Assembly (NCBI GenBank): GCA_008375315.1
Contig: CP032507.1
Span: 2,810,071 to 2,874,070 of the forward strand
Source of the DNA: Ectothiorhodospiraceae bacterium BW-2
Lineage (GTDB): Bacteria > Pseudomonadota > Gammaproteobacteria > Thiohalomonadales > Thiohalomonadaceae
Length of the DNA: 64,000 bases
Direction: 5' to 3'
Part shown: positions 40,219-57,253 of the stretch, piece by piece
How the letters are laid out: every line of letters begins with the position of its first letter
Position numbering within the stretch: position 1 is the stretch's first letter
The notes under the pieces: generated by a model
What the model saw: the letters and a program-made list of their open reading frames with translations, nothing else
Told to the model about the DNA's origin: nothing
Databases searched by the model: none
Translations under genes and position numbers: made by a program

Positions 40219-40690
40219 GCTGGATCTGATCGATAAACTGTTGATATTCAGCGGCATCGAGCTTTAACTGCTCCATCTGCTGTAGATCGTCATAGTTGGC
40301 TGGGCGGTCAGTCTCCTCCTCAGAGTCGGCGCTTAATCCCCGAGCCGCCCCGGCTGTCGTAACCACGGAGGCACGGGTGCGGGCGCTCTGATTTAAATCG
40401 ACGCTACTTTGGTCAAGGGGTGAGAGGTTATTGAGCGGTGGGTGGGAGGTGAACATAAATTTAGAGAGCCATCCTTGCTGCGATCCCGATGTCACCTCTA
40501 TCCAGGCGGTCTGTCGGCTGACGACGGTGACCTCATCGCCGCGATTGAGGGTGGCAATCTTATTGGCATTAAAGGCGGGTTGAGCAAACAGGGGAGCCTG
40601 TTGACTCTGAATGTAGCCGGTTTCAGCCTGTAAAGTGGCGCTGAGTGTGAGTGCTGCGAGCAGCGTGTGAAGACGCATAGTCATCATCAA
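40208..40690 (-). CDS. Exported bacterial SH3-domain protein
   Basis: 160 residues. A signal peptide (about 1-22) precedes an SH3b domain (about 25-82) with GDEVTVVSRQTAWIEVTSGSQQGWLSKFM. The rest is polar and probably unstructured. AGGAGT lies about four bases before the start. SH3b domains bind peptidoglycan or protein partners. It is first in a run with the M48 protease and barrel genes, and before the island insertion it was probably directly downstream of the CHASE2 cyclase gene. Confidence 0.8.
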   Translation of the reverse strand: MMMTMRLHTLLAALTLSATLQAETGYIQSQQAPLFAQPAFNANKIATLNRGDEVTVVSRQTAWIEVTSGSQQGWLSKFMFTSHPPLNNLSPLDQSSVDLNQSARTRASVVTTAGAARGLSADSEEETDRPANYDDLQQMEQLKLDAAEYQQFIDQIQHGK

Positions 40691-40975
40691 GACTCCTGTG
40701 TGGGACGGGAACTATTTGCTGGTTAAATTATACACCCCATCCCACCCCTTTTCAGGGGGATTTTGCAAGAAAGTGTGGCCGCGCTCCTGCATCAGTTGAC
40801 TATAGGCGGGCAGAGGGAGCTGCTGGTAGGCCTCAATCGTCGCCTACCACTGCTTCTCTAGGTAAAATTTGAAGAGCAGAGGTGGGAGTGGGTCGCGATC
40901 GCCGTGGCTCGATTTAAGGTCTCGCTATCGCTGTCGGGAGGACAGAGTGGGGCGAAGATCATAATCGGGTGCGCT
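40686..40975. repeat. Left direct repeat of the island (~290 bp)
   Basis: Matches 55065-55352 in the same orientation with scattered substitutions and a 2-bp length difference. It contains the intergenic region upstream of the SH3 gene and the 3' end of the cyclase gene. Homology stops sharply at 40975, where unrelated DNA begins. Confidence 0.9.
40712..40975 (-). pseudogene. 3' fragment of the CHASE2/adenylate cyclase gene
   Basis: Corresponds to the last ~88 codons of the gene at 55091 (AHPIMIFAPLCPPDSDSETLNRATAIATHSHLC, then the tail), ending at the same stop. A 2-base insertion near 40870 destroys the frame relative to the intact copy. The catalytic part is absent. Confidence 0.85.
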
Positions 40976-41305: not shown

Positions 41306-42910
41306 ATGCCGCTGACCGAAAAATTTTTTAACACCGCCGGCCCGCAGATAGCGACCGACCACTACACCATCGCACCGCTACAGCGGATTAACTGGGAGGA
41401 GATTAGCCATCTCATTGACCAAAAACGCTACTTCCTGCTCCACGCCCCGCGCCAAACCGGCAAAACCACCACCCTGTTGAGCATTGTTGAGGCGCTCAAT
41501 AACGAAGGGCGCTATACCGCCCTCTATGTCAACCTAGAGCGGTCGCAGATAGCGCGCAATAATGCGGAGTTGGGAGACCGGCAGTTTTGCGATGCGCTGC
41601 TGCAATCGATTCGCGCAACAGCGCCCCACCTCATCGAGAGCACTGAGGCGCGGCAAGTGATTGCCGAAGCCGAAGCGATGCAGCGCTTTGGTGCGCTACT
41701 GAGCTGGTGGTCATCGGTGCACCCCAAACCGATTATCCTGCTGCTCGACGAAGTCGATGCCCTTATCGGTGATACCTTAGTGTCGTTATTGCGCCAACTG
41801 CGCGCCGGCTACACCCAGCGCCCGCAGGCTTTTCCGCAATCGGTACTGCTCTGTGGTGTGCGCGATATAAAAGATTATCGCATCCACCAAAGTGATGGCG
41901 ACATCATCACCGGCGGCAGCGCCTTTAATGTTAAAGCCGAGTCGTTGACGATGGGTAATTTCACCGAAGTGGAGTGCCACGCCCTCTATCAACAACACAC
42001 CGATGCTACCGGCCAGCCCTTTGCTGAGGCGATATTCCCTGAGCTGTGGCTCGATACCGCCGGCCAGCCGTGGCTGGTTAATGCCCTTGCTCACCAATTG
42101 ACATGGAAAGAGTCCGCCCTGCGCGACCGCAGCCAGCCCATCACCCTTAACCACTATTTCGCCGCCCGTGAACGGCTGATTCAATCCCGCGCTACCCACC
42201 TTGACCAGCTCACCGACAAACTTAAAGAGCCACGAGTGCGCGGCGTGATTGCGCCGATTCTCTCCGGTGAGGGTGAGCCGGAGCAGCTACCGGTCGATGA
42301 TGTCGATTATTGTGTCGATTTAGGGCTCATTCGCCGCCGCCCTAATCTGGCCATCAGCAACCGCATCTATCGCGAGATATTGCCGCGTGAACTCACCTAC
42401 ACCACCCAAGAGACCATCACCAATCAAGAGCAGAGCTGGTATCTCACCCCCGACCACCGCCTCGATATGATCAAACTGCTGCAAGCATTTCAGCCATTCT
42501 TTCGCGAACATAGCCAGAGCTGGATTCAACGCTTCGACTACCACGAAGCGGGGCCACAACTGCTGCTGCAAGCCTTTTTACAACGCATTATTAACGGCGG
42601 TGGGCGCATTAACCGCGAATATGCCCTCGGCCGCCGCCGCACTGACCTTATCATCGAATGGCCGGTCGATGAGGCAGTAGGGCTATTTGGCGAAGTGCAG
42701 CGCATTGTGATTGAGCTAAAAATCTTGCGTAGTAACCTAAAAAAGACCCTGCAACAAGGCATTGAACAGAGCCGCGCCTATGCCGATAGCTGTGGTGCCG
42801 CAGAGGTGCATCTGATTATCTTTAACCGCAACCCCAAAATAAGCTGGGGTAAGAAGATTTGGTATCGCGCCGCCGCCGCGCAGAATGGGGTGCATTGTTG
42901 GGGTTGTTAG
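41306..42910 (+). CDS. AAA+ ATPase/PD-(D/E)XK protein, array copy 1 (blocks a-1-x)
   Basis: 534 residues. ATPase domain with Walker A APRQTGKT at 47-54 (Ala in place of the first Gly) and Walker B ILLLDEVDAL around 144-153. A conserved CGVRDIKDYR and a winged-helix-like region (about 290-375) follow. The C-terminal PD-(D/E)XK nuclease-like domain has D447, E470 and K472 (RRRTDLIIEW, IVIELKIL). It resembles AAA-like (AAA_35/AAA_14-type) proteins that are multicopy in some filamentous sulfur bacteria and cyanobacteria; function unknown. AGGAGG lies nine bases before the ATG. It is the only copy with the middle block VNLERSQIARNNAELG. Confidence 0.85.
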   Translation: MPLTEKFFNTAGPQIATDHYTIAPLQRINWEEISHLIDQKRYFLLHAPRQTGKTTTLLSIVEALNNEGRYTALYVNLERSQIARNNAELGDRQFCDALLQSIRATAPHLIESTEARQVIAEAEAMQRFGALLSWWSSVHPKPIILLLDEVDALIGDTLVSLLRQLRAGYTQRPQAFPQSVLLCGVRDIKDYRIHQSDGDIITGGSAFNVKAESLTMGNFTEVECHALYQQHTDATGQPFAEAIFPELWLDTAGQPWLVNALAHQLTWKESALRDRSQPITLNHYFAARERLIQSRATHLDQLTDKLKEPRVRGVIAPILSGEGEPEQLPVDDVDYCVDLGLIRRRPNLAISNRIYREILPRELTYTTQETITNQEQSWYLTPDHRLDMIKLLQAFQPFFREHSQSWIQRFDYHEAGPQLLLQAFLQRIINGGGRINREYALGRRRTDLIIEWPVDEAVGLFGEVQRIVIELKILRSNLKKTLQQGIEQSRAYADSCGAAEVHLIIFNRNPKISWGKKIWYRAAAAQNGVHCWGC

Positions 42911-43003
42911 GGCAACGAAATCCGACATTGGCCGCATCTTCATATTAATCTCTTTTGATCTAATATATTATTCGATTTTTAAGTTAAAGATAGCGGAGGC
43001 GTG

Positions 43004-43027
43004 ATGGCGTTAAGCATCACCGATTGA
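43004..43027 (+). other. Conserved seven-residue mini-ORF in each spacer
   Basis: ATG to TGA encodes MALSITD, with GGAGG four bases upstream. It is repeated exactly at 44747-44770 and 46490-46513, ending 18 bases before each array gene's ATG. It could be a leader peptide coupling translation to the main gene, or simply part of the duplicated unit. Confidence 0.35.
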
Positions 43028-43045
43028 GCTAGGAGGAGGCACACC

Positions 43046-44653
43046 ATGCCACTGACCGAAAAGTTTTTTAACACCGCCGGCCCGCAAAAGGCGGAAATTA
43101 ACTACACCATTAACCCGCTACAGCGGATTAACTGGGAGGAGATACGCCACCTTATCGACAGCCAGCGCTACTTCCTGCTCCACGCCCCGCGCCAAACCGG
43201 CAAAACCACCACCCTGTTGAGCATTGTTGAGGCGCTCAATAACGAAGGGCGCTATACCGCCCTCTATGCCAATATCGAAACGGCGCAAACCGCACGCAGC
43301 GATGTAGCTATGGGAGTCGAGGGGATCTGTCGCGCCATTGCCAATCAAGTGGAGCTCTATTGGGGTGAGCAGCGGCTAAAAACTTGGCTTAATAACGAAG
43401 GCAGCCAAGAGTCGCCCCATCAAAAATTACAGGCACTGTTACAGATGTGGGCGCGTCACCACCCCAAACCGATTATCCTGCTGCTCGACGAAGTCGATGC
43501 CCTTATCGGCGATACCTTAGTGTCGTTATTGCGCCAACTGCGCGCCGGCTACACCCAGCGCCCGCAGGCTTTTCCGCAATCGGTACTGCTCTGTGGTGTG
43601 CGCGATATAAAAGATTATCGCATCCACCAAAGCGACGGCGACATCATCACCGGCGGCAGCGCCTTTAATGTTAAAGCTAAGTCGCTCACCATGGGCAACT
43701 TCACTGAAACAGAGTGCCATGTCCTCTACCAACAACACACCGCTGCCACCGGCCAGCCCTTTGCGGAGGCGATATTTCCTGAACTGTGGCTCGATACCGC
43801 CGGCCAGCCGTGGCTGGTTAATGCGCTCGCGCACCAGCTTACTTGGGAAGAGGGAGTATTGCGCGACCGCAGCCAGCCCATCACCCTTAACCACTATTTT
43901 GCCGCCCGTGAACGGCTGATTCAATCCCGCGCTACCCACCTTGACCAGCTCACCGACAAACTTAAAGAGCCACGAGTGCGCGGCGTGATTGCGCCGATAT
44001 TGGCGGCTGAAGATGAGTTAGAGATACAGGTGCCCATAGATGACCGGCAATACTGCGAAGATTTAGGTCTGGTTATCTCCCGCCCCTCACTACGAATTAG
44101 CAACCGTATCTACCAAGAGGTGATACCACGCGAACTCACTTGGATGACCCAAACCTCCATCACCAACCAAGAGCAGAGCTGGTATCTCGCCCCCGACCAC
44201 CGCCTCGATATGATCAAACTGCTGCAAGCATTTCAGCAATTCTTTCGCGAACATAGCCAGAGCTGGATTCAACGCTTTGACTACCACGAAGCGGGGCCAC
44301 AACTGCTGCTGCAAGCCTTTTTACAACGCATTATTAACGGCGGTGGGCGCATTAACCGCGAATATGCCCTCGGCCGCCGCCGCACTGACCTTATCATCGA
44401 ATGGCCGGTCGATGAGGCGGTAGGGCTATTTGGCGAAGTGCAGCGCATTGTGATTGAGCTAAAAATCTTGCGTAGTCACCTAAAAAAGACCCTGCAACAA
44501 GGCATTGAACAGAGCCGCGCCTATGCCGATAGCTGTGGTGCCGCAGAGGTGCATCTGATTATCTTTAACCGCAACCCCAAAATAAGCTGGGGTAAGAAGA
44601 TTTGGTATCGCGCCGCCGCCGCGCAGAATGGGGTGCATTGTTGGGGTTGTTAA
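43046..44653 (+). CDS. AAA+ ATPase/PD-(D/E)XK protein, array copy 2 (blocks b-2-y)
   Basis: 535 residues. It alone has the N-terminal block KAEINYTINPLQRINWEEIRHLIDS (block b). Its middle block (ANIETAQTARSDVAMG, about 75-140) and its winged-helix block (LAAEDELEIQVPIDDRQYC, about 318-375) are shared with copy 3. Nuclease residues are D448, E471 and K473, shifted by one because the winged-helix block is one residue longer than in copy 1. From about codon 45 to the stop it is identical, or nearly so, to copy 3. Confidence 0.85.
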   Translation: MPLTEKFFNTAGPQKAEINYTINPLQRINWEEIRHLIDSQRYFLLHAPRQTGKTTTLLSIVEALNNEGRYTALYANIETAQTARSDVAMGVEGICRAIANQVELYWGEQRLKTWLNNEGSQESPHQKLQALLQMWARHHPKPIILLLDEVDALIGDTLVSLLRQLRAGYTQRPQAFPQSVLLCGVRDIKDYRIHQSDGDIITGGSAFNVKAKSLTMGNFTETECHVLYQQHTAATGQPFAEAIFPELWLDTAGQPWLVNALAHQLTWEEGVLRDRSQPITLNHYFAARERLIQSRATHLDQLTDKLKEPRVRGVIAPILAAEDELEIQVPIDDRQYCEDLGLVISRPSLRISNRIYQEVIPRELTWMTQTSITNQEQSWYLAPDHRLDMIKLLQAFQQFFREHSQSWIQRFDYHEAGPQLLLQAFLQRIINGGGRINREYALGRRRTDLIIEWPVDEAVGLFGEVQRIVIELKILRSHLKKTLQQGIEQSRAYADSCGAAEVHLIIFNRNPKISWGKKIWYRAAAAQNGVHCWGC

Positions 44654-44788
44654 GGCAACGAAATCCGACATTGGCCGCATCTTTATATTAATCTCTTTTG
44701 ATCTAATATATTATTCGATTTTTAAGTTAAAGATAGCGGAGGCGTGATGGCGTTAAGCATCACCGATTGAGCTAGGAGGAGGCACACC

Positions 44789-46396
44789 ATGCCACTGACC
44801 GAAAAGTTTTTTAACACCGCCGGCCCGCAGATAGCGACCGACCACTACACCATCGCACCGCTACAGCGGATTAACTGGGAGGAGATTAGCCATCTCATTG
44901 ACCAAAAACGCTACTTCCTGCTCCACGCCCCGCGCCAAACCGGCAAAACCACCACCCTGTTGAGCATTGTTGAGGCGCTCAATAACGAAGGGCGCTATAC
45001 CGCCCTCTATGCCAATATCGAAACGGCGCAAACCGCACGCAGCGATGTAGCTATGGGAGTCGAGGGGATCTGTCGCGCCATTGCCAATCAAGTGGAGCTC
45101 TATTGGGGTGAGCAGCGGCTAAAAACTTGGCTTAATAACGAAGGCAGCCAAGAGTCGCCCCATCAAAAATTACAGGCACTGTTACAGATGTGGGCGCGTC
45201 ACCACCCCAAACCGATTATCCTGCTGCTCGACGAAGTCGATGCCCTTATCGGCGATACCTTAGTGTCGTTATTGCGCCAACTGCGCGCCGGCTACACCCA
45301 GCGCCCGCAGGCTTTTCCGCAATCGGTACTGCTCTGTGGTGTGCGCGATATAAAAGATTATCGCATCCACCAAAGCGACGGCGACATCATCACCGGCGGC
45401 AGCGCCTTTAATGTTAAAGCTAAGTCGCTCACCATGGGCAACTTCACTGAAACAGAGTGCCATGTCCTCTACCAACAACACACCGCTGCCACCGGCCAGC
45501 CCTTTGCGGAGGCGATATTTCCTGAACTGTGGCTCGATACCGCCGGCCAGCCGTGGCTGGTTAATGCGCTCGCGCACCAGCTTACTTGGGAAGAGGGAGT
45601 ATTGCGCGACCGCAGCCAGCCCATCACCCTTAACCACTATTTTGCCGCCCGTGAACGGCTGATTCAATCCCGCGCTACCCACCTTGACCAGCTCACCGAC
45701 AAACTTAAAGAGCCACGAGTGCGCGGCGTGATTGCGCCGATATTGGCGGCTGAAGATGAGTTAGAGATACAGGTGCCCATAGATGACCGGCAATACTGCG
45801 AAGATTTAGGTCTGGTTATCTCCCGCCCCTCACTACGAATTAGCAACCGTATCTACCAAGAGGTGATACCACGCGAACTCACTTGGATGACCCAAACCTC
45901 CATCACCAACCAAGAGCAGAGCTGGTATCTCGCCCCCGACCACCGCCTCGATATGATCAAACTGCTGCAAGCATTTCAGCAATTCTTTCGCGAACATAGC
46001 CAGAGCTGGATTCAACGCTTTGACTACCACGAAGCGGGGCCACAACTGCTGCTGCAAGCCTTTTTACAACGCATTATTAACGGCGGTGGGCGCATTAACC
46101 GCGAATATGCCCTCGGCCGCCGCCGCACTGACCTTATCATCGAATGGCCGGTCGATGAGGCGGTAGGGCTATTTGGCGAAGTGCAGCGCATTGTGATTGA
46201 GCTAAAAATCTTGCGTAGTCACCTAAAAAAGACCCTGCAACAAGGCATTGAACAGAGCCGCGCCTATGCCGATAGCTGTGGTGCCGCAGAGGTGCATCTG
46301 ATTATCTTTAACCGCAACCCCAAAATAAGCTGGGGTAAGAAGATTTGGTATCGCGCCGCCGCCGCGCAGAATGGGGTGCATTGTTGGGGTTGTTAA
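44789..46396 (+). CDS. AAA+ ATPase/PD-(D/E)XK protein, array copy 3 (blocks a-2-y)
   Basis: 535 residues. The first ~45 codons carry block a (IATDHYTIAPLQRINWEEIS), as in copy 1, while everything after equals copy 2 at the base level as far as can be compared by eye. The join lies in the conserved stretch around YFLLHAPRQTGKTT. D448, E471 and K473 are intact, so the product should be as functional as its neighbours. Confidence 0.85.
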   Translation: MPLTEKFFNTAGPQIATDHYTIAPLQRINWEEISHLIDQKRYFLLHAPRQTGKTTTLLSIVEALNNEGRYTALYANIETAQTARSDVAMGVEGICRAIANQVELYWGEQRLKTWLNNEGSQESPHQKLQALLQMWARHHPKPIILLLDEVDALIGDTLVSLLRQLRAGYTQRPQAFPQSVLLCGVRDIKDYRIHQSDGDIITGGSAFNVKAKSLTMGNFTETECHVLYQQHTAATGQPFAEAIFPELWLDTAGQPWLVNALAHQLTWEEGVLRDRSQPITLNHYFAARERLIQSRATHLDQLTDKLKEPRVRGVIAPILAAEDELEIQVPIDDRQYCEDLGLVISRPSLRISNRIYQEVIPRELTWMTQTSITNQEQSWYLAPDHRLDMIKLLQAFQQFFREHSQSWIQRFDYHEAGPQLLLQAFLQRIINGGGRINREYALGRRRTDLIIEWPVDEAVGLFGEVQRIVIELKILRSHLKKTLQQGIEQSRAYADSCGAAEVHLIIFNRNPKISWGKKIWYRAAAAQNGVHCWGC

Positions 46397-46531
46397 GGCA
46401 ACGAAATCCGACATTGGCCGCATCTTTATATTAATCTCTTTTGATCTAATATATTATTCGATTTTTAAGTTAAAGATAGCGGAGGCGTGATGGCGTTAAG
46501 CATCACCGATTGAGCTAGGAGGAGGCACACC

Positions 46532-48136
46532 ATGCCACTGACCGAAAAGTTTTTTAACACCGCCGGCCCGCAGATAGCGACCGACCACTACACCATCGCA
46601 CCGCTACAGCGGATTAACTGGGAGGAGATTAGCCATCTCATTGACCAAAAACGCTACTTCCTGCTCCACGCCCCGCGCCAAACCGGCAAAACCACCACCC
46701 TGTTGAGCATTGTTGAGGCGCTCAATAACGAAGGGCGCTATACCGCCCTCTATGCCAATATCGAAACGGCGCAAACCGCACGCAGCGATGTAGCTATGGG
46801 AGTCGAGGGGATCTGTCGCGCCATTGCCAATCAAATGGAGCTCTATTGGGGTGAGCAGCGGCTAAAAACTTGGCTTAATAACGAAGGCAGCCAAGAGTCG
46901 CCCCATCAAAAATTACAGGCACTGTTACAGATGTGGGCGCGTTATCACCCCAAACCGATTATCCTGCTGCTCGACGAAGTCGATGCCCTTATCGGTGATA
47001 CCTTAGTGTCGTTATTGCGCCAACTGCGCGCCGGCTACACCCAGCGCCCGCAGGCTTTTCCGCAATCGGTACTGCTCTGTGGTGTGCGCGATATAAAAGA
47101 TTATCGCATCCACCAAAGTGATGGCGACATCATCACCGGCGGCAGCGCCTTTAATGTTAAAGCCGAGTCGTTGACGATGGGTAATTTCACCGAAGTGGAG
47201 TGCCACGCCCTCTATCAACAACACACCGATGCTACCGGCCAGCCCTTTGCTGAGGCGATATTCCCTGAGCTGTGGCTCGATACCGCCGGCCAGCCGTGGC
47301 TGGTTAATGCCCTTGCTCACCAATTGACATGGAAAGAGTCCGCCCTGCGCGACCGCAGCCAGCCCATCACCCTTAACCACTATTTCGCCGCCCGTGAACG
47401 GCTGATTCAATCCCGCGCTACCCACCTTGACCAGCTCACCGACAAACTTAAAGAGCCACGAGTGCGCGGCGTGATTGCGCCGATTCTCTCCGGTGAGGGT
47501 GAGCCGGAGCAGCTACCGGTCGATGATGTCGATTATTGTGTCGATTTAGGGCTCATTCGCCGCCGCCCTAATCTGGCCATCAGCAACCGCATCTATCGCG
47601 AGATATTGCCGCGTGAACTCACCTACACCACCCAAGAGACCATCACCAATCAAGAGCAGAGCTGGTATCTCACCCCCGACCACCGCCTCGATATGATCAA
47701 ACTGCTGCAAGCATTTCAGCAATTCTTTCGCGAACATAGCCAGAGCTGGATTCAACGCTTCGACTACCACGAAGCGGGGCCACAACTGCTGCTGCAAGCC
47801 TTTTTACAACGCATTATTAACGGCGGTGGGCGCATTAACCGCGAATATGCCCTCGGCCGCCGCCGCACTGACCTTATCATCGAATGGCCGGTCGATGAGG
47901 CGGTAGGGCTATTTGGCGAAGTGCAGCGCATTGTGATTGAGCTAAAAATCTTGCGTAGTCACCTAAAAAAGACCCTGCAACAAGGCATTGAACAGAGCCG
48001 CGCCTATGCCGATAGCTGTGGTGCCGCAGAGGTGCATCTGATTATCTTTAACCGCAACCCCAAAATAAGCTGGGGTAAGAAGATTTGGTATCGCGCCGCC
48101 GCAGGAGAGGGTGGGGTGCATTGTTGGGGCTGTTAG
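46532..48136 (+). CDS. AAA+ ATPase/PD-(D/E)XK protein, array copy 4 (blocks a-2-x, chimera)
   Basis: 534 residues. The 5' part follows copy 3 (block a, middle block 2). From the Walker B region (GGTGATACC at ~46996) to at least ~47764 it follows copy 1 (AESLTMGNFTEVECHALY, LSGEGEPEQLPVDDVDYC). Later positions (QQFF, SHLKK) agree with copies 2 and 3. The last codons differ from all others (RAAAGEGGVHCWGC), because the unit ends here. Nuclease residues are D447, E470 and K472. Confidence 0.85.
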   Translation: MPLTEKFFNTAGPQIATDHYTIAPLQRINWEEISHLIDQKRYFLLHAPRQTGKTTTLLSIVEALNNEGRYTALYANIETAQTARSDVAMGVEGICRAIANQMELYWGEQRLKTWLNNEGSQESPHQKLQALLQMWARYHPKPIILLLDEVDALIGDTLVSLLRQLRAGYTQRPQAFPQSVLLCGVRDIKDYRIHQSDGDIITGGSAFNVKAESLTMGNFTEVECHALYQQHTDATGQPFAEAIFPELWLDTAGQPWLVNALAHQLTWKESALRDRSQPITLNHYFAARERLIQSRATHLDQLTDKLKEPRVRGVIAPILSGEGEPEQLPVDDVDYCVDLGLIRRRPNLAISNRIYREILPRELTYTTQETITNQEQSWYLTPDHRLDMIKLLQAFQQFFREHSQSWIQRFDYHEAGPQLLLQAFLQRIINGGGRINREYALGRRRTDLIIEWPVDEAVGLFGEVQRIVIELKILRSHLKKTLQQGIEQSRAYADSCGAAEVHLIIFNRNPKISWGKKIWYRAAAGEGGVHCWGC

Positions 48137-48163
48137 CGCAACGAAGGGCACTGGGCTCAGACT

Positions 48164-48480
48164 ATAGTCCGTAGCTCTGTGACCATTAACAAAACACCCA
48201 ACAGTAGCTGCCTATCGGCTTTAGAGAGGGCCAAATCTTCTGCAATGGCTCTCTCAACACGCCCAATCAGCTCGTCACTGTCGGTTTTACTCAATGTTTT
48301 AAACTCTGCCATTGTCGGCTTCACTCAGCTCCTGAGTCATTTGCTCGTATTGCTCTAGCAGTTAGGCAATTTCTATACGGCTACGGCGCGGTTTCTGCTT
48401 GGGGTTTGTGATCAATTCAGTTACACTCTCTTCCGATCTGACACTTCCTCTTTTGTGGCGATAAATGGTTTTGCTCAACA
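48164..48480 (-). pseudogene. Decayed minus-strand gene pair, possibly transposon-associated
   Basis: Two overlapping minus-strand frames remain. The upstream one reads LLSKTIYRHKRGSV, then TNPKQKPRRSRIEIA, a TAA, and LLEQYEQMTQELSEADNG. The downstream one starts at an ATG (complement of 48311-48313), MAEFKTLSKTDSDELIGRVE, and stops after about 50 codons. The second resembles short helper proteins that accompany some transposases, but this is a weak impression and no transposase core is present. Confidence 0.35.
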
Positions 48481-48537
48481 GATTTGACGCATCAGGGGTG
48501 TAGGTGTCATGTCTCTTGTAAAACCGAACAAGCTAAC

Positions 48538-48675
48538 GCCGATAATGATGATGATAATGATGGGTTTAGTGATGCCGAAGAGCAATTTTATGGTACCAAT
48601 CTGTTAGTCAAAGACTGCGCAAGTTTCATCTGCGGTAAGGGCAAGAGCTGGTTATACGGGATTCAACAACCATAA
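48538..48675 (+). pseudogene. C-terminal fragment of a TSP3/calcium-repeat secreted protein
   Basis: An acidic DNDDDNDGFSDAEEQFYGTN is followed by a Cys-containing tail CGKGKSWLYGIQQP and stop. The first part is a thrombospondin type-3-like calcium motif. The tail recurs at 50301-50438, again just before an array gene. No start or upstream domain is left. Confidence 0.6.
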
Positions 48676-48703
48676 CCGGGTCAATGGCTAAAAGAGCAAA
48701 CTA

Positions 48704-50284
48704 ATGGAGAAATTTTTTAACACCGAAGGGCCGATGAAGGCCGATATGCACTATCTTATTCCCTCATTTCAACGATTTGACTGGGAGGAGGTTCGGGTCT
48801 TGATTGAGCGGCAGAAATATTTTCTGCTCCACGCACCGCGCCAAACCGGTAAGACTACGGCACTGATGGAGATGGTGACAGCCCTCAATCAAGAGGGACG
48901 CTATCTGGCGCTCTATGTCAATATCGAAGCGGCGCAGACGGCACGCAATGATGCCGACAAGGGCAATCGAATTATTTGTGATATTTTACTGCAAAGTGGC
49001 GAACTCTTTTTTAGCGAACCGCTACCATGGAGTGAAGCCCGAGATAAACTGCGTCCGACAGAGCCGCAACAGCGACTAAATCAGCTACTTAGTTGGTGGG
49101 CAAAGCACAGCTCCAAACCCATTGTCCTGTTACTGGACGAAGTTGATGCACTCATCGGCGATACCCTAGTGTCACTGCTACGACAGCTACGCACCGGCTA
49201 TATGCAACGCCCCGAAGCGTTTCCTCATAGTATTATTCTCTGTGGTGTGCGCGATTTAAAAGACTACCGCATTCACCAGAGCAATGGCGATATTATTACC
49301 GGCGGTAGTGCCTTTAATGTGAAGGCAGAGTCGCTGACACTGGGTAACTTTACCCCACAAGAGATACGAACACTCTATCAGCAACATACCGAGGCCACCG
49401 GCCAGTACTTCGATGAGGCTATTTTTGAACTGCTATGGCAAGACACCTATGGCCAGCCGTGGCTGGTCAATGCTATCGGTAACGAATTAACCTGGAAAGA
49501 TCGTGCACTGCGCGATCGCAGCGTAGTGATTAACCTGCCTCACTATCTGGCAGCGCGGGAGCGACTGATACAGTCGCGGGCAGTGCACTTAGATCAGCTG
49601 GCCGATAAATTACGCGAAAACAGGGTGCGGCGGGTGATTGCGCCGATATTAGCAGGAGAACCGTCGCCACAACAACGACAGGATGATTTAGAGTATTGCG
49701 AAGATTTAGGTTTGATTCGGCGTAAGCCGCTGGAGATAAGTAATCGCATCTACCGCGAAATATTGCCACGAGAGTTAACCAGCGCCCTGCAAGATTCCAT
49801 AACCAACCAGCAGCAGAGCTGGTATCTGACCGAAACAAACCGGCTCGACATGGTTAAACTGCTACAGGCGTTTCAACAGTTTTTTCGGGAGAACTCCGAA
49901 AGCTGGCTACAGCGCTTTGCCTACAAAGAGGCGGGGCCACAGCTACTGATGCAGGCGTTTTTACAGCGCATTATCAATGGCGGCGGACGCATTAACCGCG
50001 ACTATGCGCTCGGACGGCGTCGTACCGACCTGCTCATCGAGTGGCCGGTGAGAGAACATAACGGTCAGTGGCAGGAGGTACAAATTGTGGTGATAGAGCT
50101 AAAGATTTTGCACGGATCACTGGAGAAGATAGTGGAGGAGGGGATAGCACAGACCCTCGACTACAGTGATAAGTGTGGCGCAGAGGAGAGCCATTTGGTG
50201 ATTTTTGACCGCGATGCGACCACCTCGTGGGAGGAGAAGATTTGGCACTGGCCGTGCCGTTTGGTGAGTGTGTGGGGCTGTTAG
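48704..50284 (+). CDS. AAA+ ATPase/PD-(D/E)XK protein, array copy 5 (blocks c-p)
   Basis: 526 residues, in a second subfamily clearly diverged from copies 1-4 but colinear with them. Walker A APRQTGKT is at 44-51, Walker B IVLLLDEVDAL, nuclease D442, E465 and K467. N-terminal block c (MKADMHYLIPSFQRFDWEEVR) is shared with copy 7. Its winged-helix block (LAGEPSPQQRQDDLEYCEDLG ... SALQDSITNQ) is unique. No AGGAGG is seen; AAAAGAGC lies ten bases before the ATG. It ends WPCRLVSVWGC like copies 6 and 7. Confidence 0.85.
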   Translation: MEKFFNTEGPMKADMHYLIPSFQRFDWEEVRVLIERQKYFLLHAPRQTGKTTALMEMVTALNQEGRYLALYVNIEAAQTARNDADKGNRIICDILLQSGELFFSEPLPWSEARDKLRPTEPQQRLNQLLSWWAKHSSKPIVLLLDEVDALIGDTLVSLLRQLRTGYMQRPEAFPHSIILCGVRDLKDYRIHQSNGDIITGGSAFNVKAESLTLGNFTPQEIRTLYQQHTEATGQYFDEAIFELLWQDTYGQPWLVNAIGNELTWKDRALRDRSVVINLPHYLAARERLIQSRAVHLDQLADKLRENRVRRVIAPILAGEPSPQQRQDDLEYCEDLGLIRRKPLEISNRIYREILPRELTSALQDSITNQQQSWYLTETNRLDMVKLLQAFQQFFRENSESWLQRFAYKEAGPQLLMQAFLQRIINGGGRINRDYALGRRRTDLLIEWPVREHNGQWQEVQIVVIELKILHGSLEKIVEEGIAQTLDYSDKCGAEESHLVIFDRDATTSWEEKIWHWPCRLVSVWGC

Positions 50285-50300
50285 CAGTGCATACATTGGT

Positions 50301-50438
50301 GTTCAAGATGAGCATTGGATATATTCAGAAAGTCAGCTGGTTGGAAGATTTAGCGGAACTAATCCGTTAGTTAAAGCGTACCCGGGCTTTATCTGCGGTA
50401 AAGGCAAGAGTTGGCTATACGGGATTCAACAGCCGTAA
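50301..50438 (+). pseudogene. Second copy of the CGKGKSWLYGIQQP tail
   Basis: Reads GTNPLVKAYPGFICGKGKSW to the same IQQP stop (50436-50438) as the fragment at 48538. The acidic repeat upstream of it is lost. The following 20 bases, including CTAAAAGAGCAAACTA before the next ATG, also match, so this tail was duplicated together with the ATPase gene. Confidence 0.55.
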
Positions 50439-50465
50439 CGAGGGAAGAGCTAAAAGAGCAAACTA

Positions 50466-52052
50466 ATGGAAAAATTTTTTAATACCGAAGGGCCGATGAT
50501 AGCAGCGGACCACTACCTTATCCCCTCTTTCGGGCGCATTGATTGGGAGGAAATGCAGACGCTAATTGATCGCAAACGCTACTTTCTGCTCCACGCACCG
50601 CGCCAAACCGGTAAGACTACGGCACTGATGGAGATGGTGACAGCCCTCAATCAAGAGGGACGCTATCTGGCGCTCTATGTCAATATCGAAGCGGCGCAGA
50701 CGGCACGCAATGATGCCGACAAGGGCAATCGAATTATTTGTGATATTTTACTGCAAAGTGGCGAACTCTTTTTTAGCGAACCGCTACCATGGAGTGAAGC
50801 CCGAGATAAACTGCGTCCGACAGAGTCGCAACAGCGACTAAATCAGCTACTTAGTTGGTGGGCAAAGCACAGCTCCAAACCCATTGTCCTGTTACTGGAC
50901 GAAGTTGATGCACTCATCGGCGATACCCTAGTGTCACTGCTACGACAGCTACGCACCGGCTATATGCAACGCCCCGAAGCGTTTCCTCATAGTATTATTC
51001 TTTGTGGTGTGCGCGATTTAAAAGACTACCGCATCCACCAAAGCAATGGCGATATTATTACCGGCGGTAGTGCCTTTAATGTGAAGGCTAAATCGCTGAC
51101 ACTGGGTAACTTTACCCCACAGGAGATACGAGCACTCTATCAGCAACATACGGATGCCACCGGGCAGCGCTTTGATGAGGCGATTTTTGAGACGCTATGG
51201 CAGGACACCTATGGCCAGCCGTGGTTAGTCAATGCCATGGGTAACGAATTAACCTGGGAGGATCGCAGCCTGCGGGATCGCAGCGTCATCATTACCACGC
51301 ACCACTATCAGGCAGCGCGGGAGCGACTGATACAGTCGCGGGCGGTACACTTAGATCAATTGGCCGATAAACTACAGGAGGAGCGGGTTCGCGGGGTGAT
51401 TGCGCCGATTCTAGCAGGAGAAGGTATGCCCGACCATTTACCGCAGGACGATCTGCTCTACTGTCACGATTTGGGTTTAATACGGATTAAACCAACGCTG
51501 CAGATTAGCAATCGCATCTATCAGGAAGTGATCCCGCGAGAGTTGACCTTTACCACCCAGGCGACGATAAGTAACCAGCAGCAGAGCTGGTATCTGACCG
51601 AAACAAACCGGCTCGATGTGGTTAAACTGCTACAGGCGTTTCAACAGTTTTTTCGGCAGAACTCCGAAATCTGGCTACAGCGTTTTGCCTACAAAGAGGC
51701 GGGGCCACAGCTACTGATGCAGGCATTTTTACAGCGCATTATCAATGGCGGCGGACGGATTAACCGCGAATATGCGCTCGGACGGCGTCGTACCGACCTG
51801 CTCATCGAGTGGCCGGTGAGAGAACATAACGGCCAGTGGGATGAAGTACAAATTGTGGTGATAGAGCTAAAGATTTTGCGCGGCTCACTGGAGAAGGTAG
51901 TGGAGGAGGGGATAGCACAGACCCTCGACTACAGTGATAAGTGTGGCGCAGAGGAGAGCCATTTGGTGATTTTTGACCGCGATGCGACCACCTCGTGGGA
52001 GGAGAAGATTTGGCACTGGCCGTGCCGTTTGGTGAGTGTGTGGGGCTGTTAG
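50466..52052 (+). CDS. AAA+ ATPase/PD-(D/E)XK protein, array copy 6 (blocks d-q)
   Basis: 528 residues. It has a unique N-terminal block d (MIAADHYLIPSFGRIDWEEMQTLIDRK). The stretch from YFLLHAPRQTGKTT through CGVRDLKDYR is almost base-identical to copies 5 and 7. The winged-helix block (LAGEGMPDHLPQDDLLYCHDLG) is shared with copy 7 only. Nuclease residues are D444, E467 and K469. It also differs around 212-285 (AKSLT, WEDRSLRDRSVIITTHHY). Confidence 0.85.
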   Translation: MEKFFNTEGPMIAADHYLIPSFGRIDWEEMQTLIDRKRYFLLHAPRQTGKTTALMEMVTALNQEGRYLALYVNIEAAQTARNDADKGNRIICDILLQSGELFFSEPLPWSEARDKLRPTESQQRLNQLLSWWAKHSSKPIVLLLDEVDALIGDTLVSLLRQLRTGYMQRPEAFPHSIILCGVRDLKDYRIHQSNGDIITGGSAFNVKAKSLTLGNFTPQEIRALYQQHTDATGQRFDEAIFETLWQDTYGQPWLVNAMGNELTWEDRSLRDRSVIITTHHYQAARERLIQSRAVHLDQLADKLQEERVRGVIAPILAGEGMPDHLPQDDLLYCHDLGLIRIKPTLQISNRIYQEVIPRELTFTTQATISNQQQSWYLTETNRLDVVKLLQAFQQFFRQNSEIWLQRFAYKEAGPQLLMQAFLQRIINGGGRINREYALGRRRTDLLIEWPVREHNGQWDEVQIVVIELKILRGSLEKVVEEGIAQTLDYSDKCGAEESHLVIFDRDATTSWEEKIWHWPCRLVSVWGC

Positions 52053-52088
52053 CAGTGCATACGAGAGAGGTTAATTAAAAGCAGGCTG

Positions 52089-53675
52089 ATGGAGAAATTC
52101 TTTAACACCGAAGGGCCGATGAAGGCCGATATGCACTATCTTATTCCCTCATTTCAACGATTTGACTGGGAGGAGGTTCGGGTCTTGATTGAGCGGCAGA
52201 AATATTTTCTGCTCCACGCACCGCGCCAAACCGGTAAGACTACGGCACTGATGGAGATGGTGACAGCCCTCAATCAAGAGGGACGCTATCTGGCGCTCTA
52301 TGTCAATATCGAAGCGGTGCAGACGGCACGCAATGATGCCGACAAGGGCAATCGAATTATTTGTGATATTTTACTGCAAAGTGGCGAACTCTTTTTTAGC
52401 GAACCGCTACCATGGAGTGAAGCCCGAGATAAACTGCGTCCGACAGAGCCGCAACAGCGACTAAATCAGCTACTTAGTTGGTGGGCAAAGCACAGCTCCA
52501 AACCCATTGTCCTGTTACTGGACGAAGTTGATGCACTCATCGGCGATACCCTAGTGTCACTGCTACGACAGCTACGCACCGGCTATATGCAACGCCCCGA
52601 AGCGTTTCCTCATAGTATTATTCTTTGTGGTGTGCGCGATTTAAAAGACTACCGCATCCACCAAAGCAATGGCGATATTATTACCGGCGGTAGTGCCTTT
52701 AATGTGAAGGCTGAATCGCTGACTTTGGGCAACTTTACTCCACAGGAGGTGCGGGCGCTCTATCAGCAACATACCGATGTTACCGGGCAGCGCTTTGATG
52801 AGGCCATTTTTGAACCGCTATGGCAAGACACCTATGGCCAGCCGTGGCTAGTCAATGCTATCGGTAACGAATTAACCTGGAAAGATCGTGCACTGCGCGA
52901 TCGCAGCGTAGTGATTAACCTGCATCACTATCAGGCAGCGCGGGAGCGACTGATACAGTCGCGGGCGGTACACTTAGATCAATTGGCCGATAAACTACAG
53001 GAGGAGCGGGTTCGCGGGGTGATTGCGCCGATTCTAGCAGGAGAAGGTATGCCCGACCATTTACCGCAGGACGATCTGCTCTACTGTCACGATTTGGGTT
53101 TAATACGGATTAAACCAACGCTACAGATTAGCAATCGCATCTATCAGGAAGTGATCCCGCGAGAGTTGACCTTTACCACCCAGGCGACGATAAGTAACCA
53201 GCAGCAGAGCTGGTATCTGACCGAAACAAACCGGCTCGACATGGTTAAACTGCTACAGGCGTTTCAACAGTTTTTTCGGCAGAACTCCGAAATCTGGCTA
53301 CAGCGTTTTGCCTACAAAGAGGCGGGGCCACAGCTACTGATGCAGGCGTTTTTACAGCGCATTATTAATGGCGGCGGACGGATTAACCGCGAATATGCGC
53401 TCGGACGGCGTCGTACCGACCTGCTCATTGAGTGGCCGGTGAGTGAACATAACGGCCAGTGGCAGGAGGTACAGATTGTGGTGATAGAGCTAAAGATTTT
53501 GCACGGATCACTGGAGAAGATAGTGGAGGAGGGGATAGCACAGACCCTCGACTACAGTGATAAGTGTGGCGCGGAGGAGAGCCATTTGGTGATTTTTGAC
53601 CGCGATGCGACCACCTCGTGGGAGGAGAAGATTTGGCACTGGCCGTGCCGTTTGGTGAGTGTGTGGGGCTGTTAG
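52089..53675 (+). CDS. AAA+ ATPase/PD-(D/E)XK protein, array copy 7 (blocks c-q)
   Basis: 528 residues. It combines block c of copy 5 with the winged-helix block q of copy 6, and otherwise has a few private changes (EAVQTARN, PQEVRALY, VTGQRF). It follows copy 6 by only 36 bases with no remnant between. D444, E467 and K469 are intact. The region before the ATG (TTAATTAAAAGCAGGCTG) gives a weak AGG ribosome binding site. Confidence 0.85.
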   Translation: MEKFFNTEGPMKADMHYLIPSFQRFDWEEVRVLIERQKYFLLHAPRQTGKTTALMEMVTALNQEGRYLALYVNIEAVQTARNDADKGNRIICDILLQSGELFFSEPLPWSEARDKLRPTEPQQRLNQLLSWWAKHSSKPIVLLLDEVDALIGDTLVSLLRQLRTGYMQRPEAFPHSIILCGVRDLKDYRIHQSNGDIITGGSAFNVKAESLTLGNFTPQEVRALYQQHTDVTGQRFDEAIFEPLWQDTYGQPWLVNAIGNELTWKDRALRDRSVVINLHHYQAARERLIQSRAVHLDQLADKLQEERVRGVIAPILAGEGMPDHLPQDDLLYCHDLGLIRIKPTLQISNRIYQEVIPRELTFTTQATISNQQQSWYLTETNRLDMVKLLQAFQQFFRQNSEIWLQRFAYKEAGPQLLMQAFLQRIINGGGRINREYALGRRRTDLLIEWPVSEHNGQWQEVQIVVIELKILHGSLEKIVEEGIAQTLDYSDKCGAEESHLVIFDRDATTSWEEKIWHWPCRLVSVWGC

Positions 53676-53832
53676 CGGTAGATGGAGCTGAGTCAGTAGC
53701 GGAGGTGAACGATGCGGTTTACTCGCCTAGTTGCTCCGGCAGTCATGTTTGTCGATGATAGGGGTGGGTGATGAATCGGTGGTGGCTAGTTTCGGCGCGG
53801 GCTTTGATCAACACTGTGGAGAGCACCCAACA

Positions 53833-54888
53833 ATGAATATTCGACAACGCAGTCGTGGTTTACTGCTCGGCCTCGCGGTCGGCGATGCCTTGGGACTGCC
53901 AGCGGAAGGTTTGACGGCGCGGCGGATTCGCAAGCACTGCGGCGGGCCGTGGCGGCACCGTTTCCTGTTCGGTCACGGTATGGGTAGCGACGATACCGAA
54001 CACGCCAGTTTCGTCGCCCAGTCCTTGCTGGTCTGCGGCGCTGACGCACACGCTTTTGCCCATCGGCTGGGTTGGTGTCTGCGTGGCTGGTTCATCGGCT
54101 TGCCGGCCGGCATCGGCTTGGCGACGCTACGCGCCTGCCTCAAGCTGTGGCTGGGTTTTCCGCCTGCGCGCAGTGGCGTGTTTTCCGCCGGTAATGGCCC
54201 GGCGATGCGCGTCGCGCCCATTGGCCTGCGCTTCGCCCATGAACCCGACCAACTCGACGCCTGCGTTGCCGCGTCTACTCGTCTCACCCACACCGACCCC
54301 AAAGCCATGACCGGTGCGCTGGCGATTGCCCGCCTTAGCGCTTGGATTGTACGGGAGGATTTGCAAGCGCGTCCGGCGGCGACGGATTTTCTTGCGCTAT
54401 TGCATGGCTGCGGTGACGACGCCGACTGGCAACGCTGCGTCAGCGCGATTGATGAGGGGCTGCAAAACCATCTCAGCGTCGCCGAATTCGCTGCCAGTCT
54501 CGGTTTGCACACCGGCGTCAGCGGCTACATGTATCACACCGTGCCGGTTGCCGTGTATGCTTGGTATCTGCACTATGGCGATTTTGCGCTGAGCTTGGAA
54601 AGCGTGCTCAATTGCGGCGGCGATACCGACACCGTCGGCGCGATTGTCGGCGCGCTAGCAGGCGCGGTAACGGGCGAGGCCGGTATTCCCGCGCCGTGGC
54701 GCGACGGTTTATGGGACTGGCCGCGTGGCGTAGCGTTTTTAACCCAACTCGCCGACGCCCTAGCTGATGTGGCGACAACGCGGCAGACACGGCCTGCGGT
54801 GCGCTATGTCTGGCCGGCGCTGCTAGTTCGCAACGCCGTGTTTATGGTGATTGTGCTGGCGCATGGGTTTTATCGGCTTATTCCATAA
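53833..54888 (+). CDS. ADP-ribosylglycohydrolase family protein
   Basis: 351 residues from the ATG at 53833, chosen because family similarity begins at once (RSRGLLLGLAVGDALGLPAEG). Metal-binding motifs are GSDDTEHASF near the N terminus and NCGGDTDTVGAIVGALAGA near the C terminus, which together ligate the Mg ions of DraG-type hydrolases. It removes ADP-ribose from proteins or related adducts; the target is unknown. A hydrophobic C-terminal helix (about 330-347) is unusual for the family. The gene is markedly richer in G+C than its neighbours, suggesting a separate origin. GGAG lies about 12 bases upstream. Confidence 0.88.
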   Translation: MNIRQRSRGLLLGLAVGDALGLPAEGLTARRIRKHCGGPWRHRFLFGHGMGSDDTEHASFVAQSLLVCGADAHAFAHRLGWCLRGWFIGLPAGIGLATLRACLKLWLGFPPARSGVFSAGNGPAMRVAPIGLRFAHEPDQLDACVAASTRLTHTDPKAMTGALAIARLSAWIVREDLQARPAATDFLALLHGCGDDADWQRCVSAIDEGLQNHLSVAEFAASLGLHTGVSGYMYHTVPVAVYAWYLHYGDFALSLESVLNCGGDTDTVGAIVGALAGAVTGEAGIPAPWRDGLWDWPRGVAFLTQLADALADVATTRQTRPAVRYVWPALLVRNAVFMVIVLAHGFYRLIP

Positions 54889-55064: not shown

Positions 55065-55352
55065 ATCAAGACTCCTGTGTGGGACGGGAACTATTTGCTG
55101 GTTAAATTATATACCCCATCCCACCCCTCTTCAGGGGGATTTTGCAAGAAAGTGTGACAGCGCTCCTGCATCAGTTGACTATAGGCGGGCAGAGGGAGCT
55201 GCTGGTAGGCCTCAATCGCCGCCTGCCACTGCTGTTCTAGGTAGAGTTTAAAGCAGAGGTGGGAGTGGGTTGCGATCGCCGTGGCTCGATTTAGGGTCTC
55301 GCTATCGCTGTCGGGAGGACAGAGTGGGGCGAAGATCATAATCGGGTGCGCT
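55065..55352. repeat. Right direct repeat of the island (288 bp)
   Basis: Counterpart of 40686-40975. Here the cyclase sequence continues into the full gene beyond 55352, so this copy keeps the native junction on its right side, whereas the left copy keeps the native SH3 gene on its left. Confidence 0.9.
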
Positions 55353-57253
55353 TTCCCCTTAACTCTTACCATATCGATAACGGCGCAGGGGATAAAGCAG
55401 CTCAGTGCAAGATAGGTGGTCTCAGAGATAATAATGCGGCAGTGATAGGGCTTGGTTAGCCCCTCTAGGCGGGAGGCGAGATTAACGCTATCGCCAATAA
55501 TGGTGTAGTCGAGCTTATGTTCCGAGCCGATATTACCCAAAATCGCTTCACCAGTATGGATCCCCATGCCGACATCGATAGTCGGCAGCCCCTTATCAAG
55601 CAGCGTCTGGTTCACCTGAATGAGCGCCTGCTCCATCTTTAGCGCCGCGCTAACGCACTCGGTAGCGTGGTGCTCAATCTGTAGCGGTGCCCCCCAGAAG
55701 GCCATGATCGCATCGCCAATATACTTATCGAGCGTCCCTTTGTGGCTGTAGGCGATCTCGGCCATCACCCCAAAGTAGGTATTGAGGAGCTCGACCACCC
55801 GCTGCGCCGGTAGAGACTCTGAGATAGAGGTAAAGGAGCGAATATCGGAGAAGAAAATAGTTAACTGCTCGCGGTTACTGAGCGTTATCTCCTGCCGTAG
55901 CTGCTCATCATCTAGAATCTGATTGAGTGCCGCCGGCGAGAGGTAGCGGCCAAAGGTGGCGCGAACTCGCTGCCGTTCACGAATTTCGCTAAACGACAGA
56001 TAAGCAAAACTGCTAAAAAAGGTGAGTAAAATAGCAATAATCGGCGTGGTAATATTGACCACCCAGTGGTAAGCAAACAGCAGTAACCCCAGCGCTCCCC
56101 AAAGGCTAATTAGCATCAGTGGCAGCAGGGTGCGCCCGGCCATGCGCTGCTGTAACAGTACCGCAGCTAGGGTCACAATAATGAACAGTAGGCTGATAAG
56201 GTAGGTCGCACCCACCGGTAGATGGTGCAGAAGGCTATCTTGTAACAGATTGCTCAATAGCGAGACATGCAGCATCACCCCCGGTGTTTTGGGGGAGAGG
56301 GGGGTCGCCTTTAGATCTTGCAGTCCGATAGCGCTCGCGCCGATAAAGACATATTTGCCGGCGAACTGATCGGGCATCACTTTGATCTGATCTAGTTTGC
56401 CTTGATAGAGCTGCTGAATCGATGCAAATACCCCGCCGGCCGAGTAGGCGGTGACCTTTTTTAGCTGCTTTATCATCACCCGACCGTCGCGATCGAGTGG
56501 TAGTGGGGGGAGTGATGAGTTGAGGCCAATGCGCTGCGACTGCTTGATCACCACCGTATTGGTGGGGATGAGCGGGGCAAGGCCGAGAGAGGCGAAAAGG
56601 TTGCCCTGATAGAGGTGGAAGGGGCGAATGCGACGATAGATGCCGTCAGCGTCGGGTTCGACCTCCACAATACCTAGCCCCTTAGCTGCCTGATAGAGTT
56701 CGGGATAGGGGTAGAGGGCGCTATTATTGCCGCGATCACTAAATCCTTGGTAGGCGAAGGCGTGCTGTGCCACCAGATCTTGTGGGAGTGGGTGGTGCAG
56801 CGTGTGTTGATCCTGACCCTCTAGCTCCTCACGAATAAATTGTAGTGCGTGATAGGTGATGCCGCTACTGGCGGTTGCCGCCGCTAGGCGGGCGTCATCG
56901 CTAGAGAGCGATTCGTTTATGATCTGCTGATTTTCGGTAAAGAGGATATCGAAGATGATCGCCTTAGCTCCCCCCATGACGAGATAGTCGATAAGATCCC
57001 CATAGAGCGCTCTTGGCCAGGGGAAGCGGCCAACTAGCGGGTTCATCGTCTGTAGTGAGGCTTCATCAATCATAATTACCACGATATCGGGGTGGGCTTC
57101 GCTCTGCTGCTGATGGTAGAGGGTGCGCAGATCAAATGTTATATACTCCAGCCGATTGAGAGCGCCGGAGATATCGAGCAGCAGCGTAAGGCCAAATAGG
57201 GCAGTGATAATCGTTGTGGTGGCTAGGGGGCGCTGTTTGAAAAGTTGCCGCAT
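55091..57253 (-). CDS. CHASE2-domain class III adenylate/guanylate cyclase
   Basis: 720 residues. After an N-terminal helix (about 10-28), an extracytoplasmic CHASE2 sensor domain runs to about 330 (DLRTLYHQQQSEAHPDIVVIMIDEASL, FPWPRALYGDLIDYL, KYVFIGASAIGLQDLKATPL). Three membrane helices follow (about 345-425), then the class III catalytic domain (about 470-650) with the metal Asp in TIFFSDIRSFTS, and LDYTIIGDSVNLASRLE. The nucleotide specificity is uncertain. It lies 16 bases after dnaG on the same strand. Its 3' end is duplicated at 40712-40975. Confidence 0.9.
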   Translation of the reverse strand: MRQLFKQRPLATTTIITALFGLTLLLDISGALNRLEYITFDLRTLYHQQQSEAHPDIVVIMIDEASLQTMNPLVGRFPWPRALYGDLIDYLVMGGAKAIIFDILFTENQQIINESLSSDDARLAAATASSGITYHALQFIREELEGQDQHTLHHPLPQDLVAQHAFAYQGFSDRGNNSALYPYPELYQAAKGLGIVEVEPDADGIYRRIRPFHLYQGNLFASLGLAPLIPTNTVVIKQSQRIGLNSSLPPLPLDRDGRVMIKQLKKVTAYSAGGVFASIQQLYQGKLDQIKVMPDQFAGKYVFIGASAIGLQDLKATPLSPKTPGVMLHVSLLSNLLQDSLLHHLPVGATYLISLLFIIVTLAAVLLQQRMAGRTLLPLMLISLWGALGLLLFAYHWVVNITTPIIAILLTFFSSFAYLSFSEIRERQRVRATFGRYLSPAALNQILDDEQLRQEITLSNREQLTIFFSDIRSFTSISESLPAQRVVELLNTYFGVMAEIAYSHKGTLDKYIGDAIMAFWGAPLQIEHHATECVSAALKMEQALIQVNQTLLDKGLPTIDVGMGIHTGEAILGNIGSEHKLDYTIIGDSVNLASRLEGLTKPYHCRIIISETTYLALSCFIPCAVIDMVRVKGKAHPIMIFAPLCPPDSDSETLNRATAIATHSHLCFKLYLEQQWQAAIEAYQQLPLPAYSQLMQERCHTFLQNPPEEGWDGVYNLTSK

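Follow-up and report, generated by a model that had tools for sequence, protein, structure and literature searches.

Positions 41306-53675 of a 64,000-nucleotide stretch from Ectothiorhodospiraceae bacterium BW-2 (contig CP032507.1, positions 2,810,071 to 2,874,070; the whole stretch is referred to here as the window) raise the question of how seven neighboring copies of one gene have come to differ from each other in blocks, and of what these blocks may be for. Seven complete open reading frames (ORFs) lie head to tail on the + strand (array M, copies M1-M7), exactly where an earlier note, made from the letters alone, had placed seven tandem AAA+/nuclease paralogues. All are intact, no two of the seven are alike, and all encode a single protein plan: an AAA+ ATPase, a predicted winged helix and a predicted PD-(D/E)XK domain. 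The answer favored here, with reasonable if far from complete confidence, is that M1-M7 are gene-conversion mosaics of one gene, and that the swapped blocks likely set the trigger, target or partner that each protein recognizes.

Four variable blocks, N, MID, X (the lid) and WH (the predicted winged helix), are distinguished, with positions numbered by the residues of M1 (Table 1). The block combinations read in the earlier note, a1x, b2y, a2y and a2x for M1-M4 and cp, dq and cq for M5-M7, are reproduced by block identities, with two refinements. The single x/y block is variable as described, but really consists of two stretches, X (residues 209-283) and WH (308-377), separated by conserved sequence. 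Copy 7 is indeed an M5/M6 mosaic, but a finer one than "cq" implies, as its N block and part of X are copy-5-like and its WH is copy-6-like. The joints do lie in near-identical Walker A and Walker B stretches, and identity by segment confirms fixed ATPase and nuclease cores with variable blocks between them: DNA identity of Walker A, Walker B, the 284-304 stretch and the nuclease is 98-100% in M1-4 and 92-100% in M5-7, and within each group the near-identity of the Walker A, Walker B and nuclease segments extends to synonymous sites.

The genome is one 4,074,140-bp contig with 22 close full-length copies, in three arrays (M, A and B) and at three single sites (S1-S3). M2 and M3 differ at 24 aligned sites, all inside 79 bp (nt 23-101 of the trimmed gene; log10 P ~ -29.8), and 40 of the 43 sites that differ between A2 and A3 are at the N end. 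In both pairs the N differences end at the identical codon (residue 40). Recombination checks of the kind proposed in the note gave the same picture: the values observed for M4 as an M1/M2 mosaic and for M7 as an M5/M6 mosaic were each reached by 0/20,000 permutations, and the pairwise homoplasy index (PHI) is strong for A1-A9 (0.119 observed vs 0.660 +/- 0.006 permuted, 0/1,000) and for all 22 close copies (0.577 vs 0.814 +/- 0.005, 0/1,000). PHI is uninformative for M1-4 (0 observed, 0 permuted) and for the four copies of a distant array, D1-4. The case for recombination in M1-4 follows from single-copy blocks that find their nearest relatives in other arrays, as with the MID of M1, which is 74% identical to A1-A4 and 36% to M2.

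Synonymous divergence (pS) of the conserved segments is 0-0.07 inside M1-4 and 0.40-0.63 between M1-4 and array A, whereas that of the blocks, M1 vs M2, is 0.43-0.85. Thus, the cores have been homogenized within arrays, and the blocks retain old alleles. Blocks are also common to arrays A and B, which are about 600 kb apart. The ratio of nonsynonymous to synonymous divergence (dN/dS), compared inside and outside the blocks as the note had suggested, never reaches 1 in any block for which it can be calculated, and within arrays is highest for MID (0.55-0.62), with N at 0.14-0.32, WH at 0.22-0.31 and X at 0.09-0.17; as pS = 0, no ratio can be given for Walker A in M1-4 or for MID in M5-7. Positive selection on the blocks is rejected on these values, by which the blocks are old alleles. 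Shuffling among the tandem genes, as first proposed, holds as repeated recombination of paralogues, but is not confined to the array, since it involves distant arrays and is seen again in other genomes. The simplest and most likely cause of the mosaics is gene conversion among paralogues, both tandem and dispersed.

The ATPase-nuclease family extends to archaea and has at least 8,000 relatives in the protein database (8,000/8,000 scored candidates matched), with at least 80 loci in named genomes. Swaps of blocks at matching positions were found in five of eight other genomes, from two phyla; as the eight were picked from 18 for nearby or multiple copies, this fraction is no rate. One Tepidimonas pair has identities of 0.69 in N and 0.70 in WH vs 0.98 in MID, and another pair 0.67 in N and 0.49 in MID vs 0.96 in WH. 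MID identity is 0.57-0.61 in Vreelandella, and in Thiothrix it is 0.61 vs 0.98-1.0, with N at 0.81. In Latescibacteria, which belong to another phylum, there are two tandem pairs (MID 0.69 vs 0.95-1.0). Thiosymbion has less clean swaps in N, MID and WH, the block signal is weaker in Desulfotignum and Thiodictyon, and no block swap was seen in the Desulfobacteraceae pair, from one of the eight genomes compared. By these alignments, both the mosaic pattern and its recurrence in other genomes are established. Since the same block positions are swapped in distant bacteria, the blocks probably decide recognition or binding.

Residue covariation was analyzed in 191 sequences from outside the genome, a biased sample in which 106 come from the 120 database hits with the best scores and 85 from named loci. 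Pairs 18-40 and 212-268 rank first and second of 122,760 by corrected mutual information, and both lie inside swapped blocks, N and X, respectively. The commonest states at 18-40 are D-K (71), L/I/M-Q (46) and x-E, and those at 212-268 are K-E (62), E-K (61) and E-R (21). Charges at 212-268 are opposite in 151/191 sequences and like in four; in the others, at least one residue is neutral or there is a gap. Among 51 reciprocal-swap pairs from 124,750 scanned, 212-268 has the fewest same-residue exceptions (2 vs 123). The states of the two pairs are mutually independent (p = 0.54). On a FastTree phylogeny of the conserved segments, which may have recombined themselves, residues 212 and 268 change 0.87x as often as shuffled labels, compared with a median of 0.405 for 66 two-state positions (0.89 at the I/V position 33). 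Residues 212 and 268 form a reciprocal charge switch, with flips nearly independent of the branching of the protein tree. Within the genome, D-K or L/I/M-Q is kept at 18-40 in 22/22 close copies, and E-K or K-E at 212-268 in 21/22, S1 having E-H. In M7, codon 212 is GAA within copy-6-like sequence (AAA in M6, GAG in M5) and is paired with a copy-5-like K268; E212 looks to be a point repair, one that removed the K-K clash that recombination would otherwise have left. Both pairs probably mark contacts, within or between chains.

Homologous recombination very probably begins within the conserved stretches (Walker A, Walker B and nuclease) and homogenizes them, while divergent old alleles of N, MID, X and WH in all probability persist. 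The pair states (D-K, hydrophobic-Q or x-E; E-K or K-E) presumably have to match, and the blocks would therefore travel as co-adapted units. The protein is predicted to bind ATP through its Walker motifs, to assemble through AAA+/lid faces and to engage a trigger through MID and WH, after which the C-terminal domain would cut nucleic acid. The use best supported for the blocks is to hold specificity for recognition or for an interface, because they are old, alternative versions of them are maintained, and the strongest coevolving pairs fall inside them. The earlier suggestion of partner or target specificity is strengthened by these pairs, and it is still something that we infer rather than observe.

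The alternative that survives best, though an unlikely one, is neutral concerted evolution, in which exchange is driven by similarity, the blocks merely tolerate change and reshuffling has no purpose. It fits the homogenization of precisely the conserved segments and the dN/dS values, and nine distinct combinations in array A are unsurprising under random assortment (P = 0.65, with labels entered by hand), so that their uniqueness is unproven as anything unusual. However, matching block boundaries are found again in other genomes, alternative alleles such as the MID of M1 predate the arrays in which they are shared, and only one of the 66 two-state sites is as quick to flip as the charge pair, a rate not predicted by drift under tolerance. 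Insulation alone is improbable to a similar degree: here the N and lid pairs would be subunit interfaces that keep each copy in its own ring, and there would be no variable recognition of a trigger. The roughly equal frequency of E-K and K-E, their near-independence of the tree and the independence of the N and X states are all consistent with this, but two or three states per pair cannot alone insulate 22 copies, MID and WH vary beyond what the pairs need, and a contact within one chain would yield the same covariation.

Less probable again, on the comparisons made, is that the genes form a selfish or mobile family whose spread comes from self-copying, recombination being a by-product. In its favor, distribution is patchy, with the family found in 3/39 relatives sampled and 5/185 class members (own genome included in both; E <= 1e-50 for the class); the other carriers among the 38 relatives are only G004 and G012, which are assemblies of 220 and 490 contigs. 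Array M is also carried whole by an insertion flanked by a 286-bp direct repeat, 95% identical between its copies. The flanking genes are of CHASE2-type cyclase and SH3 type, and an ADP-ribosylglycohydrolase-like gene lies between them together with the array (names by sequence impression). Two relatives (L152, L153) have the empty site, with the cyclase, SH3-type gene, M48-type protease and next gene adjacent; in a third (L154), the cyclase alone was found in the stretch read. In addition, the ORF of S2 starts 11 bp past an IS66-type transposase ORF, and broken copies exist. On the other hand, the copies are mostly tandem and have long-lived alternative alleles. Finally, misassembly of near-identical repeats of about 1.74 kb is very unlikely as the source of the array M pattern, as the genome assembled into one contig, the seven copies are all different and all open, and the same pattern is found elsewhere, including in Thiothrix and Latescibacteria tandem pairs that sit in single-contig assemblies.

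Table 1. Positions of array M, its blocks and flanking repeats (window coordinates), and of the other copies (genome coordinates, where stated).
Feature	Position	Strand	Description
M1	41306..42910	+	534 aa; blocks a-1-x; pairs D18-K40, E212-K268
M2	43046..44653	+	535 aa; blocks b-2-y; pairs I18-Q40, K212-E268
M3	44789..46396	+	535 aa; blocks a-2-y; N block is sole difference from M2 (24 sites)
M4	46532..48136	+	534 aa; blocks a-2-x
M5	48704..50284	+	526 aa; blocks c-p; E-K at 212-268 equivalents
M6	50466..52052	+	528 aa; blocks d-q; K-E at 212-268 equivalents
M7	52089..53675	+	528 aa; blocks c-q, fine M5/M6 mosaic; E212 (GAA) in M6-like tract, K268
N block of M1	41345..41425	+	residues 14-40; contains coevolving pair 18-40
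MID block of M1	41531..41716	+	residues 76-137; helices between strand 2 and Walker B strand
X (lid) block of M1	41930..42154	+	residues 209-283, strand 5 and lid; contains charge-switch pair 212-268
WH block of M1 (predicted winged helix)	42227..42436	+	residues 308-377
Predicted PD-(D/E)XK domain of M1	42461..42907	+	invariant E, D, E-x-K, Q, Y
Direct repeat, left copy	40690..40975	.	displaced 3' end of cyclase-type gene
Direct repeat, right copy	55069..55352	.	3' end of intact cyclase-type gene (55091-57253, - strand)
Array A, A1-9	genome 274.6-292.2 kb		largest array of the genome
Array B, B1-3	genome 889-896 kb
Single copy S1	genome 975 kb
Single copy S2	genome 1,585 kb
Single copy S3	genome 3,803 kb
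Array D, D1-4 (L046)	genome 1768060-1774374		distant subfamily; 43% identity to M1
Broken/partial copy	genome 278195-279785
Broken/partial copy	genome 292500-293030
Broken/partial copy	genome 718380-719278
Broken/partial copy	genome 3175130-3175249

Array D is also block-swapped (WH in D2, MID in D4 and the nuclease part in D1/D2 vs D3/D4). D1 and D2 differ chiefly in WH (0.68 vs 0.97-1.0 elsewhere), and D3 and D4 chiefly in MID (0.84 vs 0.99-1.0 elsewhere). The broken and partial copies point to birth and death of genes within the family. Beside one of them is a second tandem family (L050:1-6025), with six ORFs that share identical first 60 residues; five are of 315-341 aa, the sixth is cut by the end of the stretch, and the one member scanned had no Pfam match at E <= 0.001. 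In the inserted segment that carries array M, gene 53731-54888 has 62% G+C vs 54% for the window, which hints at another origin.

For the "deliberate" reshuffling raised in the earlier note, nothing was found: no recombinase was recognized by eye in neighboring ORFs (families were not scanned for), the nearest of eight reverse transcriptase matches in the genome is >350 kb from array M, with none in the window, and ordinary gene conversion suffices. A diversity-generating retroelement is rejected, as no reverse transcriptase lies beside the variable genes and the blocks are shared alleles. Matches at genome positions 257128, 867846 and 996667 are about 17-21 kb from array A, array B and S1, and not adjacent to them.

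A role in defense is plausible, but unproven. S1 (L048, genome 968000-984000) lies between type III restriction-modification genes (methylase, ResIII) and a C5 DNA methylase, and S2 (L049, genome 1577000-1595000) is flanked by type I restriction-modification genes and Cas3/Cas5 genes; no such island was recognized around arrays M, A, B, D or S3, where selected flank proteins were scanned. Next to array A, one ATPase gives weak matches in PADLOC. Two copies searched against NCBIfam and PADLOC-DB 2.0.0 matched no known anti-phage system (best PADLOC E 7.4e-4, partial). In named genomes, the 130 nearest genes (from 80 loci minus five in which ORF calling did not recover the family gene) were compared with 130 drawn from 245 genes at least 6 kb away. 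Matches to 42 PADLOC models were found beside the gene vs six far from it (E <= 1e-10), but the near-gene models are largely redundant and represent few systems, and no clear defense-island enrichment was found among these neighbors. Four of the 130 neighbors match DUF4143 and four match AAA_14. Conflict with phages or mobile DNA is nevertheless the likeliest purpose for a repertoire of this kind, if as yet unproven.

A further proposal, to be taken as tentative and more doubtful than the general reading of swapped recognition blocks, is that of a combinatorial recognition repertoire. One motor-nuclease frame would carry four slots for cassettes, common to at least two phyla, and gene conversion would refill them from long-lived allele pools; the two pairs would act as keyed locks, one of them a freely flipping charge switch, and new combinations would be separate, mutually insulated nucleases, like NLR clusters or restriction specificity genes. 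If block identity does set recognition, the arrays amount to a combinatorial library made by nature, showing which segments to swap, and the 212/268 switch offers a two-residue test of paralogue insulation. This would be a bacterial case of recombination that preserves co-adapted contacts while making new specificities.

Among known families, AAA_22 (PF13401) is passed by all four proteins scanned with Pfam (M1, M2, M5 and M7; 28.2-32.5 bits vs a cut-off of 27), whereas AAA_35 (PF14516; cut-off 27) gives a split outcome, with 29.4 bits in M2 and 21.3-24.9 bits in the other three. The predicted C-terminal domain has the PD-(D/E)XK core fold with D ... E-x-K, and the ATPase and predicted winged helix have an SSO1545-like fold. 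However, identity with the archaeal AAA+ ATPases SSO1545 (2FNA) and PABY2304 (2QEN) is 12-14%, and membership of PF01637 (Archaeal ATPase) is rejected (20.4-26.2 bits vs 33.2, four proteins). No solved structure is convincing as a close relative by sequence (best E 0.0084). The fold is similar to CED-4/NLR proteins of the STAND NTPases, but the nSTAND Pfam model is below cut-off, and unlike RPP1, CED-4, Apaf-1 and Cdc6/Orc1, the array M proteins carry no recognized repeat sensor and have a C-terminal nuclease as predicted effector.

Shuffling of target domains in HsdS of type I restriction systems offers another parallel, with a conserved frame, exchangeable recognition segments and exchange via homologous flanks. 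HsdS is an unrelated protein, however, whereas in the array M family motor, nuclease and variable blocks are in one multi-copy polypeptide; phase-variable type I restriction is rejected, with no match to Methylase_S (PF01420) at E <= 1 in the four proteins.

No publication could be tied to this exact ATPase-nuclease family, the nearest being those on arCOG03166 and on DUF1703 in Cardinium. The archaeal arCOG03166, compared by annotation only, is described as an "AAA+ superfamily ATPase fused to HTH and RecB nuclease domains", "likely involved in defense (or some plasmid gene)", and is alike in domain order and in the defense guess (PMC4158269). Cardinium cCpun has 25 recombining DUF1703 paralogues of unknown function (PF09820 AAA-ATPase_like + PF08011 PDDEXK_9), which share with array M an N-terminal P-loop ATPase, a C-terminal PD-(D/E)XK domain, large lineage-specific expansion and intragenic recombination of paralogues (PMC6387759). 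The Pfam families differ, and DUF1703 membership is rejected for the four proteins (PF09820 18.0-21.7 bits vs 26.1; PF08011 no match at E <= 1); at E up to 0.1, PF09820 is matched by 56/67 family members (best 1.7e-5). A true DUF1703 gene, with PF09820 and PF08011, lies about 7 kb from array B (L045:296-2047). The available text of the Cardinium report describes recombination events, without fixed cassettes, cross-genome block positions or switch pairs (PMC6387759). For the related DUF1703, recombining paralogues are already published; the array M family is set apart from it by the Pfam tests, by fixed cassettes common to genomes of at least two phyla and by the switch pairs.

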